A stretch of DNA of 64,000 nt from Desulfobacteraceae bacterium 4572_130 (GTDB lineage: Bacteria > Desulfobacterota > Desulfobacteria > Desulfobacterales > Desulfobacteraceae), in NCBI GenBank assembly GCA_002084425.1, contig NBLN01000001.1, forward strand, positions 1-64,000. Direction: 5' to 3'. The position numbers were made by a program, and so were the translations under genes. Positions 35,013 through 42,716 of the stretch are shown in pieces. The notes below the pieces were generated by a model. It saw nothing but the letters and a program-made list of their open reading frames with translations, made no database searches and had not been told where the DNA came from. Within the stretch, counting starts at the first letter, position 1, and each line of letters starts with the position of its first letter.

Positions 35013-36464
35013 ATGAATATGAATTATATTTTCATAAAAATAAAAACGCCAATCTTATATAAAACAGCATATTTGTTATCATTGTTATTTTTTATTTCCA
35101 TATTTTTGTTTATACCATGTCTGGCACAAGCAGCACACCAGCACAATATTTCAAAAAATGAGAATACACAGGCTAATGTTGTTAAAATAAATGAAAACAA
35201 GAAAATTACACAGAATAATTTTTTAAAAACAAAATATATAGGAGAGGAAATTAAGCTTGATTTCTTTGAAACAAATATAAGAAATGTGTTTAAAGTTTTA
35301 TCCAAAGTAAGTGGTAAAAATTTTGTTATGGATAAAGATGTAAATGCTAGTGTTACATTGACATTAGACAACCCTGTTCCCTGGGATCAAGTACTTGATC
35401 TTATTTTAAAAACAAATCACCTTGGTAAAATAACAGAAAATTCTATAATACGAATTACAACAATAGATACCTTAAAAAAAGAAGAAGAAATAAAACAAGC
35501 TTTTTTTGCAGCAAAAAAATCTGCCATTGAACACCAAAAAAGTTTGGAACCTCTTACAACAGAATATATTTCCATAAATTATTCCAATGCAAAAACAGAT
35601 ATCAAACCCCATATAGAAAAAATGCTTACTCCAGTTAGAGGACATTTAAGTGTGGATTCACGCACTAACATGATAATAATAACTGATGTGCAGGATAAAA
35701 TTAATAAGGCAAAAAAACTAATATACATGCTTGATAAAGTTACACCTCAGATAATGATAACTGCCAGAATTGTTGATGTTGCTAAAAATTTTTCAAAACA
35801 ACTAGGAGTTGAATGGAATCTTGGAACCAATTATGAAAGCAATGCTCTTGGTGGTAATATTAATTATGATATTGCAATGAATTATCCTATAGGAACCCAA
35901 TCAGCACTAGGTTTTAATTTTAGCAGAATTATAGGAACCAGTTTAACTTTGGATGCTAAATTAACTGCATCTGAGGTAAAAGGAGAAGTAAAAATAATAT
36001 CATCTCCACAAATACTCACTCTTAACAATAAAAAAGCAATAATAAAACAAGGACTTGAAATTGGATATATAAGTGGTGTTGATGATAATGGAAATTCTGT
36101 AACTTCCTTTAAAAGTATGGACCTTTCCCTGGAAGTAACTCCTCATGTTACACCTGATAATCGTGTAATTATGAATATTAAAATTAAAAAAAATGATTTT
36201 GCAGGTTACTCAGATTCAGGGGTTCCATCTCTTTCCAAAAACGAGGCTGAAACAGAACTTTTGGTAAATGACAAGGAAACAATAATTATTGGCGGTATTG
36301 TAAAAAGCACTAATAATGAAACTAAAACAGGTTTTCCCATACTTTCTTCAATCCCTGTCCTGGGTCGAATTTTTAGTTCTCATACTAATCAAGAACAACA
36401 AAATGAACTTTTGATTTTTATTACCCCAAGTATTGTTCAATTAAAGCAAAAAAAGAAAATATAG
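35013..36464 (+). CDS. pilQ: Type IV pilus secretin PilQ, short form
   Basis: The outer-membrane secretin channel through which the pilus passes. After a signal-like helix it has an STN-type N0 domain (about 75-150, KLDFFETNIRNVFKVLSKVSG, NPVPWDQVLDLIL), an N1/NolW segment (TEYISINYSNA, DSRTNMIIITDV) and the C-terminal secretin domain (about 240-478, VKIISSPQILTLNNKKA, SLEVTPHVTPD, IIIGGIVKS, LLIFITPSIV). At 483 residues it is much shorter than usual PilQ proteins because no AMIN domain is present. The defence genes begin 17 bp after it. Confidence 0.9.
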   Translation: MNMNYIFIKIKTPILYKTAYLLSLLFFISIFLFIPCLAQAAHQHNISKNENTQANVVKINENKKITQNNFLKTKYIGEEIKLDFFETNIRNVFKVLSKVSGKNFVMDKDVNASVTLTLDNPVPWDQVLDLILKTNHLGKITENSIIRITTIDTLKKEEEIKQAFFAAKKSAIEHQKSLEPLTTEYISINYSNAKTDIKPHIEKMLTPVRGHLSVDSRTNMIIITDVQDKINKAKKLIYMLDKVTPQIMITARIVDVAKNFSKQLGVEWNLGTNYESNALGGNINYDIAMNYPIGTQSALGFNFSRIIGTSLTLDAKLTASEVKGEVKIISSPQILTLNNKKAIIKQGLEIGYISGVDDNGNSVTSFKSMDLSLEVTPHVTPDNRVIMNIKIKKNDFAGYSDSGVPSLSKNEAETELLVNDKETIIIGGIVKSTNNETKTGFPILSSIPVLGRIFSSHTNQEQQNELLIFITPSIVQLKQKKKI

Positions 36465-36481
36465 AGAAATTTAAGAAAGCT

Positions 36482-37819
36482 ATGGTTTTAACAAAAAATA
36501 TTATAATTAATACAAAACCACAAACTTGCAATAATTTTAAAATTTTATCAAAAATACCAATACAGTATGAATGGTCATTTTCTGACAAAACAATAAAAGA
36601 TACTGCATATATTACCCATGGAATTTATACTTATCCTGCAAAATTTATCCCGCAATTAGCAAAAAAAATAATAAAAAAATACAGTAACAAAGATGATATA
36701 ATCATAGATCCATTTATGGGTAGTGGTACAACTATAATTGAAGCAATTATTAATAATAGAATTGGTATTGGAACTGATGTTAATGAGATAGCTGTACTGC
36801 TTTCCAAAGTCAAAGCAACACCAATTGATTATAATTTATTAACAAACCAGTACTTTGATTTTATGTTTCATTTACAAGAAAAATTTAGACTAAATTTTGT
36901 AAAGGAACTTAAAAATGCTCAAAAAAATATAAAACTCCCTGCTAGAGTAGATTACTGGTTTAAGCCGCATATTAAAGACAGGCTAATTGTAATATTATAT
37001 AATATTCTTAAAATAAAAAATTCTGATATAAAAGATTTTTTTTTAATAACTTTCGCACAAATACTAAAATCCTGTTCAATCTGGCTGCAAAAAAGTGTTA
37101 AGCCAACTCGCGATTTAAAGAAAAAAGAAATAGAGCCTTTATATAAATTTCAATGGCAAGCTAAAAAAATGTTAAAAAAATATAATGATTTTAATGATCT
37201 TGTTTCACAAAAAATCAAAACTGATATTAAAAAATATAGGATTGTAAAAAATAGCGATGCAAGAAATTTGCCTTGTGGAAACAAAGAAGCAACCCTGATA
37301 GTAACTAGCCCTCCCTATGTAACTTCTTATGAATATGCAGATTTACATCAATTACCTTTATTATGGTTTGGTTTTTTAAAGGAATTATCAAGTTTCAGAA
37401 AAAAGTTTATAGGTAGTTCATTCCGGCAAAGAAATTCAATTGAGCTTAAAAGTAAAATCGCAAAAAACATTGTATTTGAACTAGGCAATAATAAATTAAG
37501 CAGGGGAGTTGAGAATTATTTTGCAGATATGCTTGAAAGCTTTATTGAAATGAAAAGAGTACTAAAAAAAGGGGGAAAAACAGCTATTGTTATTGGCAAT
37601 ACAAAGTTAAAAGGAGTTGAAATATTAAATGCTGAAGTTTTTAAAGAGCAACTTGAAAATATTGGATTTACAGTACATGATATTATTCATAGAGAAATTC
37701 CCTCAAAAATGCTGCCTTCCACAAGAGATCCTAAAAATGGCAGATTTACAAAAGCAACAAATGATAAAAAATCTCTAGTTTATCCAACTGAATATATTTT
37801 AATAATGGAGAAAAAATGA
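36482..37819 (+). CDS. DNA methyltransferase, m4C/m6A type (defence island M1)
   Basis: A 445-residue SAM-dependent DNA amino-methyltransferase. Motif I is DPFMGSGTT (residues 76-84) and the catalytic motif IV is TSPPY (275-279). The SPPY form suggests N4-cytosine methylation, with motif I before IV. The roughly 190 residues between them probably hold the target-recognition part. The stop overlaps the start of the BsaWI-like nuclease by 4 bp (ATGA), the usual arrangement of a type II restriction-modification pair. The start ATG lies 17 bp after the pilQ stop and has a GAAAGC rather than a strong ribosome site. Confidence 0.88.
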   Translation: MVLTKNIIINTKPQTCNNFKILSKIPIQYEWSFSDKTIKDTAYITHGIYTYPAKFIPQLAKKIIKKYSNKDDIIIDPFMGSGTTIIEAIINNRIGIGTDVNEIAVLLSKVKATPIDYNLLTNQYFDFMFHLQEKFRLNFVKELKNAQKNIKLPARVDYWFKPHIKDRLIVILYNILKIKNSDIKDFFLITFAQILKSCSIWLQKSVKPTRDLKKKEIEPLYKFQWQAKKMLKKYNDFNDLVSQKIKTDIKKYRIVKNSDARNLPCGNKEATLIVTSPPYVTSYEYADLHQLPLLWFGFLKELSSFRKKFIGSSFRQRNSIELKSKIAKNIVFELGNNKLSRGVENYFADMLESFIEMKRVLKKGGKTAIVIGNTKLKGVEILNAEVFKEQLENIGFTVHDIIHREIPSKMLPSTRDPKNGRFTKATNDKKSLVYPTEYILIMEKK

Positions 37820-38514
37820 AAAAATTTACTGTTGAAGATTTATTTATCATGTACAGACAATACAAAAACAAATACAAGGAAAAGGCGTATAAATATATCA
37901 GTCAGGTATTAAAAGATGCAAAACCTTTACATAAAAAAGCATTTAAAGGAAAAGACCATGAACAGTCATGGAGAGCATTTAAAGGAAAAAATCTTGAGAA
38001 ATTAATAATCCATATTATTGAAAATGAAGTAAAAAATTTAGATTTAAAAATTATTGATGGCAATAAACTTGAACGAACAAAGGAAACAAATTTATCTAAA
38101 GAATTATCAAATGTAAAAAGAAATTTATTAATTGATTATGGTGAATTTGGCTATCATTTACCTGATGTTGATATAATAATTTATGAACCTAGAACATTTA
38201 AGGTTTTGGCTGTATTATCCAGCAAAGTTACTTTAAGAGAACGAATTGCCCAAAGTGGCTATTGGAAACTTAAACTTTCTTCGCAAAAACTAACAAAACA
38301 TATAAAAGTTTATTTTATTACCCCGGATGAAGATGGAACATTAATAACTAAAAATCCTGCAAAAAAGGGAAGAGCAATTGTAGAAATTGATTTAGATGGA
38401 AGCTATATTTTAAGTGAAACTGAAATTGAAAAAAGCACTAAAGTAAAAACATTTGATAAATTTATTCATGATTTAAAGGGACTTATTAATTTAAAAAATA
38501 ACAATCATATTTGA
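37816..38514 (+). CDS. BsaWI-like type II restriction endonuclease
   Basis: A 232-residue protein that resembles the BsaWI restriction family (WCCGGW-type enzymes). An N-terminal helical part leads into SWRAFKGKNLEKLI (51-64). The candidate PD-(D/E)XK core is LPDVDIIIY (115-123) and LAVLSSKVTLRERIAQSGYWK (131-151). The predicted residues are D117 or D119 and K137 of SSK, with E61 as the possible distant acid. It is translationally coupled to the m4C methylase. Recognition of a CCGG-containing site is inference from family resemblance. No degradation of the frame is visible. Confidence 0.75.
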   Translation: MKKFTVEDLFIMYRQYKNKYKEKAYKYISQVLKDAKPLHKKAFKGKDHEQSWRAFKGKNLEKLIIHIIENEVKNLDLKIIDGNKLERTKETNLSKELSNVKRNLLIDYGEFGYHLPDVDIIIYEPRTFKVLAVLSSKVTLRERIAQSGYWKLKLSSQKLTKHIKVYFITPDEDGTLITKNPAKKGRAIVEIDLDGSYILSETEIEKSTKVKTFDKFIHDLKGLINLKNNNHI

Positions 38515-38565
38515 TATTAATTAAATATATACAACTACAAATATAGCAAAAGGCGAAAAAATATT

Positions 38566-38988
38566 ATGACATTTGATATTAATAATTTTAAAAACCTTCC
38601 TAAAAAATCTAATAGATATCAAAAACAATTGTCTAGAATTAAAGACAATGGATTAGAGACATCATTTATTGAGAAGGCTATAAAAGAAGCTGATAAAAAT
38701 TTAGATGAAAATATAAATTCATTTATTATTTATGGAGATCCACAAAGTGGAAAAACAGAAATGATGATAGCTTTAACAGCTAATCTTTTAGACAAAAAAA
38801 ATAAAATCATAATCATATTACTAAATGATAATATTGGTCTTTTAGAACAAAATTTAAAAAGATTTTCTCTGTCTGGCTTAGATCCTGCTCCTAAAAATTA
38901 TAAGGAAATTATGGATAATGTTTATAAAATCAACAATTATGAATGGATTATTTTTTGCAAAAAAACTCATCTGATTTACAAAAATTAA
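38566..38988 (+). CDS. Z1-type helicase, N-terminal fragment before frameshift
   Basis: The 140-residue frame carries the ATP-binding half of a superfamily 2 helicase: Walker A is GDPQSGKT at residues 57-64, followed by a helix MMIALTANLL. It then reads out of frame at a run of seven A bases (38959-38965) and stops at 38988. One extra A, or a -1 slip there, would join C131-K-K to the downstream frame and give a single 618-residue protein. It is 52 bp after the nuclease stop and is preceded by AAAAGG. Confidence 0.7.
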   Translation: MTFDINNFKNLPKKSNRYQKQLSRIKDNGLETSFIEKAIKEADKNLDENINSFIIYGDPQSGKTEMMIALTANLLDKKNKIIIILLNDNIGLLEQNLKRFSLSGLDPAPKNYKEIMDNVYKINNYEWIIFCKKTHLIYKN

Positions 38989-40421
38989 TAGGAAAAATAG
39001 GAAAATTTTCAAAAAAAATAATTATAGATGATGAAGCTGATTATGCTAGTCCAAATGCAAAGATAAATAAAAAAGAGCAAACAAAAATTAATGAATTAGT
39101 TGCTGAACTTATTAGGAACGATGGTAAATACATTGGAGTTACAGCTACTCCTGCAAGATTAGACCTAAATAATACCTTTGAAAATATAAGTAATTCTTGG
39201 GTATATTTTCCTGCGCATGATTCTTATACAGGTCAAGATGATTTTTTCCCAACAAATTTTGAAAATGGAAAATTAAAATATAAAATTGAGTTTCTTCCTG
39301 AAAAGTATGACGACCCCCAATATTTACGCGAAGCATTGTTTCGTTTTTTTGTAAATATAGCATACTTAAATTTATACAAAAATAATCAAGAAAAATACTA
39401 TTCAATGTTAATTCATACTAGCGGTAGAACAGATGATCATTTTAAAGATCATGATGATATAGTCTCAATTATAGATATCCTAAAAAATGAAAAAAAATTT
39501 GATAAATATGTTGAGCGTATTTATAAAATTGCTAAAAAAAAATATAAAGAAGAAGAAAAAGCAGAGAATATTACAAAATATATTTTAGAGAATAAAAATA
39601 GAAATGCAATATTAGTAATTAATAGTAAAAAAGACAAAGAAAATTTAAATAACTCTGCAACTCCAAAATCTTTATTTACTATTGCAATTGGTGGGAATAT
39701 TGTTTCAAGAGGAGTAACTTTTAATAATCTATTGTCAATGTATTTTACACGAGCTGTAAAAGGTAAATTTCAACAAGATACATATATACAAAGAGCAAGA
39801 ATGTTTGGAGCACGCAATGATTATTTAAAATATTTTGAATTAACAATTCCTCAAAAATTATATGAAGATTGGCATCGTTGTTTCTTTTTTCATGAACTTG
39901 CTCTTGCTCCAGTTAAAAGCGGTAATCCTCCTGTTTGGGTTGAAGACAGAAAAATTAGTTCTGTTGCACCAAGCAGTATAGATCAATCTACCATTCAAAT
40001 AAATAGTGGAGAAATGAATTTTAAAATCTTTGATTATACTAATGAAATTAAAGAATTAATTACTAATAAAATTAAATCATTCAAAAAAATAGAACAATTA
40101 AGAGAATTGATAGGAAATCCAAGCCTATCTTTATATCTAATAAATGCTATTAAAAAACTTAGTCCTGATGGCAATAATTCTTTAGCTATACATTCCTCTG
40201 GAAGTATAGAAAGCTATAAAGATGCTGATAAAGATCATATTTCAAGAAAAAAAGGATTAATAGGAAAAAGAGACTTAGAAGAAAAAAAATTCCCCCATGC
40301 AATTCATCACATAAAAATATTTTATAATTTAGAGAATAAAGCCAGAGTCTTTTATAAATTTACCGGAGTTAATAGCATAAAATTTTTAAAAAAATTGAGA
40401 AATAATTATGACAAGAACTGA
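38943..40421 (+). CDS. Z1-type DEAD helicase, C-terminal part after frameshift
   Basis: A 492-residue frame beginning in the Walker B region: DDEAD at residues 29-33 is an exact DEAD box. Motif III is GVTATPARL, and the C-terminal helicase part has ISRGVTFNNL and the motif VI-like YIQRARMFGAR. The Z1 domain is known from the ATPase subunits of the CglI/NgoAVII restriction enzymes and from MORC/GHKL-linked defence systems. The protein would need fusion with the preceding frame to bind ATP. It overlaps the upstream fragment by 46 bp and the next gene by 14 bp. Confidence 0.75.
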   Translation: MDYFLQKNSSDLQKLIGKIGKFSKKIIIDDEADYASPNAKINKKEQTKINELVAELIRNDGKYIGVTATPARLDLNNTFENISNSWVYFPAHDSYTGQDDFFPTNFENGKLKYKIEFLPEKYDDPQYLREALFRFFVNIAYLNLYKNNQEKYYSMLIHTSGRTDDHFKDHDDIVSIIDILKNEKKFDKYVERIYKIAKKKYKEEEKAENITKYILENKNRNAILVINSKKDKENLNNSATPKSLFTIAIGGNIVSRGVTFNNLLSMYFTRAVKGKFQQDTYIQRARMFGARNDYLKYFELTIPQKLYEDWHRCFFFHELALAPVKSGNPPVWVEDRKISSVAPSSIDQSTIQINSGEMNFKIFDYTNEIKELITNKIKSFKKIEQLRELIGNPSLSLYLINAIKKLSPDGNNSLAIHSSGSIESYKDADKDHISRKKGLIGKRDLEEKKFPHAIHHIKIFYNLENKARVFYKFTGVNSIKFLKKLRNNYDKN

Positions 40422-40839
40422 TTTTTTTCATGGAGTTGTTTTGGCTAATATAGTCAATAAAAATGATGTTTCTTTAAAAAAATACAAGAAAAACAATTCA
40501 TCATATATTATAAATGATACAATAGGAATTTATAATAAATATTCGCAAAAAAGGATATCACCATGGTCATTTTCTTTTTTAGAAAAACATATTAATCAAA
40601 TATTAGAAATGAATAAAAATTTAGAAACACTTTTTATTATTCTAATTTGTAATAATGATGGTATCTGTTGTTTAAATTATCAAGAATTTGGTACTGTACT
40701 ATCTGTAGAAAATAAAATGTTTCCCAAATGGATTAAAGCATCTCGGTTAAAAAAAGAAAAATATTCAGTATCAGGAAGTGACGGAAAGCTATCTTATAAA
40801 ATTGGAAACAACAAATTCCCTGAAAAGATTTTTAATTAA
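40408..40839 (+). CDS. Unrecognised protein in the defence island
   Basis: I do not recognise this 143-residue protein. It starts at ATG 40408, overlapping the helicase stop by 14 bp, and ends 2 bp before the second methylase, so it is almost certainly part of the operon. Visible features are an N-terminal FFHGVVLANIVNK helix-like stretch, SYIINDTIGIYNKYSQKR, a hydrophobic strand LFIILICNNDG with paired cysteines (CC), and a basic C-terminal part KWIKASRLKKEKY. There is no signal peptide or membrane segment. A DNA-binding or nuclease-accessory subunit is a guess from context only. Confidence 0.7.
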   Translation: MTRTDFFHGVVLANIVNKNDVSLKKYKKNNSSYIINDTIGIYNKYSQKRISPWSFSFLEKHINQILEMNKNLETLFIILICNNDGICCLNYQEFGTVLSVENKMFPKWIKASRLKKEKYSVSGSDGKLSYKIGNNKFPEKIFN

Positions 40840-40841
40840 TC

Positions 40842-41510
40842 ATGCTAATAGAATCAACAACACTTTGGGATTTTCCTATGCAAAATTATGGGAAAATACC
40901 TCATGGTAATAATAAATATAATGGCGTTACTCCTGCTTTTGTGATTTGGAATTTATTACAACGATATACAAAAAAAGGAGATTTCGTTATTGATCCAATG
41001 GCTGGTAGTGGAACAACCTATGATGTTGCTGTTGAATTAAATAGAAAAGTAAAATGTTTTGATTTAAATATTGTAAGAAAAGAAGTTGAAAAAGCAGATG
41101 CAAGGCAAATACCATTAAGAAATGATATAGCAGACTTTGTATTTATTGACTCTCCATATTCCAATAATATCAAATATTCAGATGATAACAATTGCATTGG
41201 AAAAATTTCATGTGAAAAAACAGAATTTTTTGATGAATTAGAAAAAGTAGCAATAGAAATAAAAAGAATATTAAAAAAGGGCAAAATCATGGGTTGGTTA
41301 ATTGGTGATCAATGGATTAAAAAAAAATTTACACCAACCGGTTTTTTGCTATATCAACGATTAAATAAACATTTTGAAACAATTGATATGATTTCTGTAA
41401 CAAGACATAACCAAACATCAAATACTGGAGTTTGGCATTATAGAGCAAGAAAATATAATTTCTATTTACGAGGATTTAAGTACTTATTTATAATGCAAAA
41501 GCTAACATAA
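40842..41510 (+). CDS. DNA methyltransferase (defence island M2)
   Basis: A 222-residue SAM-dependent DNA methylase. The N-terminal TTLWDFPMQNYGKIPHG and ATPxFVIWNLLQRYT-like segments (GVTPAFVIWNLLQRY) are followed by motif I DPMAGSGTT (51-59) and motif IV DSPY (103-106). DSPY lies between the DPPY of adenine and the SPPY of cytosine enzymes, so base specificity is unclear. It has no large insertion for target recognition, unlike the first methylase. It starts 2 bp after the unknown protein and ends the island. An AATCAATA/TATTGATT inverted repeat lies just after its stop. Confidence 0.85.
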   Translation: MLIESTTLWDFPMQNYGKIPHGNNKYNGVTPAFVIWNLLQRYTKKGDFVIDPMAGSGTTYDVAVELNRKVKCFDLNIVRKEVEKADARQIPLRNDIADFVFIDSPYSNNIKYSDDNNCIGKISCEKTEFFDELEKVAIEIKRILKKGKIMGWLIGDQWIKKKFTPTGFLLYQRLNKHFETIDMISVTRHNQTSNTGVWHYRARKYNFYLRGFKYLFIMQKLT

Positions 41511-41513
41511 ATT

Positions 41514-41537
41514 AATCAATATAAACTATTATTGATT
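41514..41537. terminator. Inverted repeat after the defence island
   Basis: AATCAATA and TATTGATT (perfect 8-bp arms, 8-nt loop) immediately follow the second methylase stop. No T-run follows, so it may be a terminator or a boundary signal. Confidence 0.3.
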
Positions 41538-41777
41538 CATAAAATAAAAGAACATTATTTAAAACATAAGATGGTCAGGTAAAAAATTCCATACAAGATC
41601 TATTATTTTTTTCAAGGATGAAATTTTCTTCTTTTTATATTCTGTACTTGTCCTTATTCTAAAGCTAATATCTTACTGCTAACAACTTATAGATTGGTAT
41701 TTCAAAGTCTTGAAAAAATGTTAGAATAAAATATATGAATAATTTTTATAACCTCATCAAACAACAGGAGATATTTT

Positions 41778-42716
41778 GTGATACAGGTAAAAAATTTGTC
41801 TAAATACTATAATGATTTTTGTGCAGTTGATAAAATCAGCCTTAATATTAAAAAAGGTGAAATACTTGGGCTGCTTGGACCAAATGGTGCTGGGAAAACA
41901 ACTACTTTAAGAATGCTTACAGGTTTTTTAAAACCATCTTCCGGCAATATAAACATAAAAAATCTTTCTATTTTTAATGATTCCCTTAGAATTAAAAAAC
42001 TTATTGGATATCTTCCTGAATCAGCTCCCCTTTATCATAATATGCTGGTTTTTGATTATCTTGAATATGTTGCAAAAATTAAAGGAGTTAAAAAAGAGAA
42101 AAGATTTCAAAGATTTAAAAGACTATCTAAACTTTGCGGGCTTTCCCAGATTATGCATTTATCCATAAATGAACTTTCCAAGGGATTAAAACAACGGGTG
42201 GGACTTGCCCATGCAATGATGACTGATCCTGAAATCCTTATTCTTGACGAACCAACTTCAGGGCTTGATCCTAATCAAATAATAGAAATAAGAGATATTA
42301 TTACAAGAATTGGAAAGGAAAAAACCATAATTATTTCAACACATATTTTAAGTGAAGCAGAAGCAACTTGTAATAGAATTGTAATTATAAATAAAGGTAA
42401 AATTGTTGCTGATGATACCAGCCAAAATTTAAAACAAAAAGCTCAAAAAAGTTCATGTATAAATCTTTCCTTGTATAATGCAGAGCAAGATAAAGCTTAC
42501 AATGTTTTAAAAGAAATTAATAATTCTCTGGAAATAATAAAAAAAGAATCTAAGGAAAAAGATATTATTTCTTTTGAAATTAAAAGCCCTGGAGATATTG
42601 ATATTAGAAAAGATATTTACCTTAAAATTAAAGAAACTAACTGGATTATAGCAGAATTTATTCGTGAACCACAGACATTGGAAAAAATTTTTCAAGAACT
42701 TACAAGGGAGAGTTAA
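41778..42716 (+). CDS. ABC transporter ATP-binding protein (GldA-like)
   Basis: The start is GTG with CAGGAG upstream. The 312-residue ATPase has Walker A GPNGAGKTT, the Q-loop region, signature LSKGLKQR (a non-standard LSGGQ variant, normal in this group), Walker B LILDEPTSGLD and the His switch STHILSEAE. A C-terminal extension of about 90 residues follows. It pairs with the next permease and the GldG-like protein. The family is named after Flavobacterium gliding genes but is widespread, so gliding is not implied. Confidence 0.9.
   Translation: MIQVKNLSKYYNDFCAVDKISLNIKKGEILGLLGPNGAGKTTTLRMLTGFLKPSSGNINIKNLSIFNDSLRIKKLIGYLPESAPLYHNMLVFDYLEYVAKIKGVKKEKRFQRFKRLSKLCGLSQIMHLSINELSKGLKQRVGLAHAMMTDPEILILDEPTSGLDPNQIIEIRDIITRIGKEKTIIISTHILSEAEATCNRIVIINKGKIVADDTSQNLKQKAQKSSCINLSLYNAEQDKAYNVLKEINNSLEIIKKESKEKDIISFEIKSPGDIDIRKDIYLKIKETNWIIAEFIREPQTLEKIFQELTRES

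Follow-up and report, generated by a model that had tools for sequence, protein, structure and literature searches.

The window analysed here, a stretch of 64,000 nucleotides with a G+C content of 29 %, lies in contig 8 of the draft genome of Desulfobacteraceae bacterium 4572_130 (1.94 Mb, 24 contigs, 80 % complete). Five genes of a restriction locus follow each other on the forward strand in the order methyltransferase 1, BsaWI-type nuclease, Z1 ATPase, 143-aa protein and methyltransferase 2. DNA methyltransferase 1 (36482–37819, 445 aa; Pfam N6_N4_Mtase) precedes a BsaWI-type restriction endonuclease of 232 aa with an intact frame (37816–38514), whose match to Pfam RE_BsaWI (E 7.5e-34) scored 116.4 bits against a curated cut-off of 26.2. 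The 5' part of the Z1 ATPase gene appears in the ORF list at 38566–38988 (140 aa, with ResIII and Helicase_II matches); the Walker A motif GDPQSGKT was read at 38734–38757, and the frame is lost past an A run. The 3' part is a 492-aa open frame at 38943–40421 with a DEAD-type box, read as DDEAD at 39027–39041, the Z1 domain (PF10593, E 6.9e-29) and a C-terminal part. The site of the frame change is a run of seven A at 38959–38965, which in sequence and alignment lies within the codons of an invariant K-K-N motif. A 143-aa protein without a Pfam family (40408–40839), with tblastn matches in L028, L030, L031 and L032 and an alignment, and DNA methyltransferase 2 (40842–41510, 222 aa; Pfam N6_N4_Mtase) complete the locus. 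The Z1 gene was the sole match of the draft genome in a Z1 family search, and no tandem repeats were found in 36000–42000.

The first-pass annotation had placed the Walker A motif and the DEAD box of a Z1 helicase in separate frames, which the ORF list and our own reading of the sequence confirmed: the ORFs 38566–38988 (Walker A) and 38943–40421 (DDEAD) overlap in different frames, and no single polypeptide of the window Z1 gene contains both motifs. It had also proposed a clean join at the A7 run. The run is flanked by TGC and CTC, and reading on in the -1 frame indeed yields ...IIFC-K-K-N-SSDL... and a protein of 618 residues. The two pieces complement each other on family models. Positions 28–91 of the PADLOC model Helicase_II were matched by the first piece and positions 149–511 by the second; Pfam assigned ResIII to the first and Z1 to the second, domains that occur together within a single ORF in L028 and L029. 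Both pieces aligned side by side, in a single frame, to one ORF each in L028, L029, L030 and L031. These alignments indicate that 38566–38988 and 38943–40421 belong to a single broken gene and that no natural boundary between genes lies here.

Single-sequence scans of genome and viral contigs gave no relative of the Z1 ATPase, but an alignment-based scan of genome contigs did, and the best 80 of at least 477 stretches encoding a relative were analysed. Among these were five close orthologues with 39–51 % identity, from Saccharibacteria (L028), Nanoarchaeota (L029), Pelagibacteraceae (L030 and L031) and Patescibacteria (L032). Orthologues naturally split at this point had been named in advance as evidence against a frameshift; all five were continuous through the break site, L028–L031 under translation table 11 and L032 only if TGA is translated as Gly. 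Walker A and the DEAD-type box shared one open frame in 79 of the best 80 of 477 relatives. The single exception, L072, is a fragment whose frame starts at the second codon of its contig, with too little upstream sequence to judge. At the expected stretch KKN was present in 62 and [KT]KN in 70 of the same 80, and K-K-N was invariant in all 26 aligned ORFs, which were of similar length and hand-picked from this set. Z1 matches were found in 4 of 58 related genomes, own genome included, with distant proteins, and under a stricter cut-off in 2 of 291, again including the own genome; ten plasmid records and two phages matched with 26–30 % identity.

A structure model of the L028 protein (mean pLDDT 74) places K137–N139 at the end of strand 132–137, and the next strand, 156–161, leads into the DEAD box. 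With K-K-N positioned between core strands of this model, the break is predicted to fall mid-way in one RecA-like core. Fold comparison of the model gave ATP-dependent helicases and restriction motors as its best matches, with RadD first (E 1.9e-08) and LlaBIII next, at low TM-scores by query of 0.31 and 0.35, respectively. By sequence, neither the 492-aa piece nor the nuclease had a solved relative at E 0.01. A pair of separate polypeptides that work together could start from the ATG at 38943, which heads the downstream frame. However, in the L028 model the cut would come between adjacent strands in the core of a single RecA-like domain, none of the five close orthologues is split, and by eye no Shine-Dalgarno-like sequence precedes 38943. 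We consider such a pair highly improbable; a natural split was rejected in view of the five continuous orthologues and the shared frame in 79 of the best 80 of 477 relatives.

The direction of the change was read from the codons of the motif. L029, L030 and L031 (the latter two near copies), three of the five close orthologues, have TGT AAA AAA AAT, a run of eight A, and the loss of one A from such a run is the simplest reading of the comparison. The ancestral run length is not certain, since L028 has TGT AAA AAG AAT and L032 ACT AAA AAG AAT, neither with A8. Among the 62 KKN loci from the best 80 of 477 relatives, AAA AAA AAT occurred five times and AAA AAA AAC did not occur. For the age of the break, L031 was left out and each sequence was scored at the residues on which all four others agree. 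Of such residues the window retains 32 of 36 upstream of the break, 93 of 99 downstream of it and 6 of 7 C-terminally; the corresponding values of the four intact orthologues are 32/33 to 32/38, 93/98 to 93/113 and 6/7 to 6/10. Because neither half shows a sign of decay, the break would be recent, bypassed or not real. An old pseudogene was ruled out by the conservation of both halves, which equals that of intact orthologues.

A consensus or assembly error would mean that the gene is intact in the cells and that the assembly alone lacks one A. The break site is a homopolymer, the motif K-K-N is invariant, and the absence of decay in both halves fits a sequence error equally well; moreover, the genome is a draft of 80 % completeness, and its sampled stretches contain at least four further conserved genes that are broken but show no additional visible decay. 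The sample comprised the window and 16 further stretches of the same genome (L108–L123), together 374,735 bases. A frame-switch model marked 25 places in these bases, and most of the listed ones have a start codon beside the upstream stop and look like gene borders. One place, at position 813 of the window, was dropped, and of the 23 besides the Z1 gene, 16 were judged by eye to be gene borders or short tails. Five junctions of the remaining seven were scanned against family models, while L119_1802 and L108_16362 were left out. At four of the five both halves matched one family; the fifth is at the 5' end of iorA, where a 76-aa piece matched nothing, and iorA may have a second break near this end. 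The broken genes with both halves on one NCBIfam model were iorA (38–478 and 493–595), recD2 (1–567 and 599–712), qrcB (1–509 and 550–694) and fliD (3–39 and 88–465), located in L118 (contig 9), L121 (contig 12) and L117 (contig 8, 80001–100000) of the same genome. We infer short deletions rather than single-base slips in these genes, because model positions are missing at each of the four junctions. The four genes fit gene decay and assembly faults alike.

Against such an error stands the behaviour of other homopolymers. In the sampled stretches of about 375 kb, 968 A/T runs of at least seven bases lie inside 240 ORFs of at least 150 aa. Only the Z1 break is a clear frameshift at a run of this length, although roughly four in ten frameshifts escape the method and two further candidates with an A run nearby (L119_1802 and L108_1989) may be others. 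Of simulated single-base deletions the model recovered 123 of 200, and 88 of 112 when these lay at least 120 codons from both ends. Four further places had a run of at least seven in the frame overlap: L108_1989 (a 20-aa tail), L119_1802, fliD, and a boundary between two genes at 36437 of the window. The low frameshift rate at homopolymers argues against homopolymer-blind sequencing, and therefore we lean, short of proof, towards a real mutation. A real loss of one base, from A8 to A7, is slightly favoured in our judgement, and an error of the consensus or assembly is a substantial but less probable alternative.

The first-pass annotation had left three options, an inactivating deletion, a sequence error and a productive slippage that would make the system switchable. 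The first two still stand, while the third found no support in a weak slippery context, the lack of a stable structure, the lack of a conserved break and the shortness of the A7 run. Productive slippage would have the polymerase or the ribosome restore the frame partly, or the run length vary between cells. The A run lies exactly at the junction, the downstream frame is conserved and could be kept open by some read-through, and a rescue of frameshifted genes at long poly(A) runs is described for A+T-rich endosymbionts (PMC5009743, PMC3017870): eight Blochmannia genes are reported with frameshifts at poly(A) runs (PMC3017870), and PMC5009743 cites transcript correction of 12–50 % at long poly(A) runs of endosymbionts. 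The window resembles these Blochmannia and Buchnera cases (PMC3017870, PMC5009743) in its A+T-rich genome and in a one-base indel in an A run of an otherwise intact gene; it differs in that the run is only A7 and no frameshifted relative was found. In a reporter assay, slippage of the E. coli RNA polymerase is given as undetectable on runs of less than 7 T or 8 A (PMC6260861), so that A7 is below the length with detectable slippage. Genome-wide data of Buchnera describe insertions in A/T runs that rise with run length and report a restored frame in no case (PMC5574713). At the ribosome, the zero-frame codons TGC AAA AAA ACT do not form a tandem -1 heptamer, and a -1 move would put the first lysine tRNA on CAA. 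The downstream RNA was not more stable than its shuffles (z 0.91; 167 of 200 shuffles had an equal or better fold), and all five close orthologues are in one frame without a conserved break. A programmed -1 ribosomal frameshift is unlikely in view of the codon context, the fold and the missing conservation in orthologues. The A7 run is a weak, not an impossible, slippage candidate, and productive slippage or a variable run length seems unlikely. Quite unlikely, too, is the specific proposal that the A run in the K-K-N codons acts as a length-variable switch, which would set the fraction of cells or transcripts in frame and toggle the ATP-dependent part while nuclease and methyltransferases stay constant.

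Among studied proteins the closest are the CglI and NgoAVII N-proteins characterized in PMC4267653, Z1-containing ATPases of systems in which cleavage needs ATP hydrolysis. The ATPase activity of an N.CglI mutant with D158A and E159A is reported there as undetectable. The window gene, about 620 aa when read through, shares their order of an SF2-type ATPase part, the Z1 domain and a C-terminal part, and it likewise adjoins genes for DNA methyltransferases and a nuclease; Corynebacterium glutamicum, the source of CglI, also gave a match in the Z1 family search. Unlike these systems, the window has its Z1 gene out of frame and an extra 143-aa protein together with a second methyltransferase. The nuclease is of BsaWI type, whereas that of CglI is a PLD-B3 protein, and Pfam assigned neither a PLD nor a B3 family, as in the R-protein partner, to any of the five locus proteins. 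BsaWI belongs to the CCGG family and is described as a Type II enzyme in an article whose main text does not contain the word ATP (PMC4652773). The gene 37816–38514 resembles it by a RE_BsaWI match well above the cut-off; in contrast to BsaWI, a Z1 ATPase gene follows the nuclease gene in the window.

The operon 36482–41510 looks like two interleaved modules, one of methyltransferase 1, Z1 and the 143-aa protein, the other of the BsaWI-type nuclease and methyltransferase 2. L028 has methyltransferase 1, Z1 and the 143-aa protein without the nuclease, and in L020–L022, loci near contig ends, nuclease and methyltransferase 2 are adjacent without methyltransferase 1 or Z1. None of seven genomes with the nuclease family (the L020–L022 genomes and four others) had a Z1 match, a null result that alone shows nothing, though the same query matched elsewhere. 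Since nuclease and methyltransferase 2 are paired in genomes where no Z1 gene was detected, they might work without the motor. Four of the five close orthologue loci carry a homologue of the 143-aa protein next to the Z1 ATPase gene, with an orientation that differs among them (L028:7490–7987; L030:5112–5570, reverse strand; L031:981–1439, reverse strand; L032:7590–8020). From this recurrence the protein may be a fixed partner of the Z1 ATPase; no Pfam or PADLOC family was found for it, and its AlphaFold model was poor (mean pLDDT 54). In L030:5112–8710 the Z1 pair lies between a C5 methyltransferase and an HNH protein (Pfam) with a 208-aa protein, which has no Pfam family and looks nuclease-like by eye; L031:981–4579 has, by eye, the same arrangement. 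The methyltransferase 1 homologue of L029:1–1163 matched in two frames (1–189 and 279–1163) and may be broken too. No avoidance of WCCGGW as a trace of BsaWI-type restriction was seen in the window and L108–L123 (53 sites, 51.1 expected). GGCC was scarce in the same sequences, with 115 sites against 324 expected in a Markov model.

We regard a single-base contraction of the A run as the best explanation; in this genome of 29 % G+C, ordinary replication slippage most likely shortened A8 to A7. The contraction would be very recent and would put a Z1 ATPase gene similar to those of the CglI and NgoAVII N-proteins out of frame. Ribosomes would then stop after 140 residues and leave a fragment that retains Walker A and lacks the DEAD box, the remainder of the motor and Z1. 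Because the DEAD box is missing, this product should be inactive, and the ATPase would be absent. The BsaWI-type nuclease and both methyltransferases would stay open, and the locus could still act as a plain nuclease-methyltransferase pair. Regulation by frameshifting would not be needed for this explanation. If the run varied in living cells, it would provide a simple on/off control of ATP-dependent restriction; nothing here requires it. As assembled, the restriction locus is probably left without its motor, and both ORFs should be annotated as a single broken gene.
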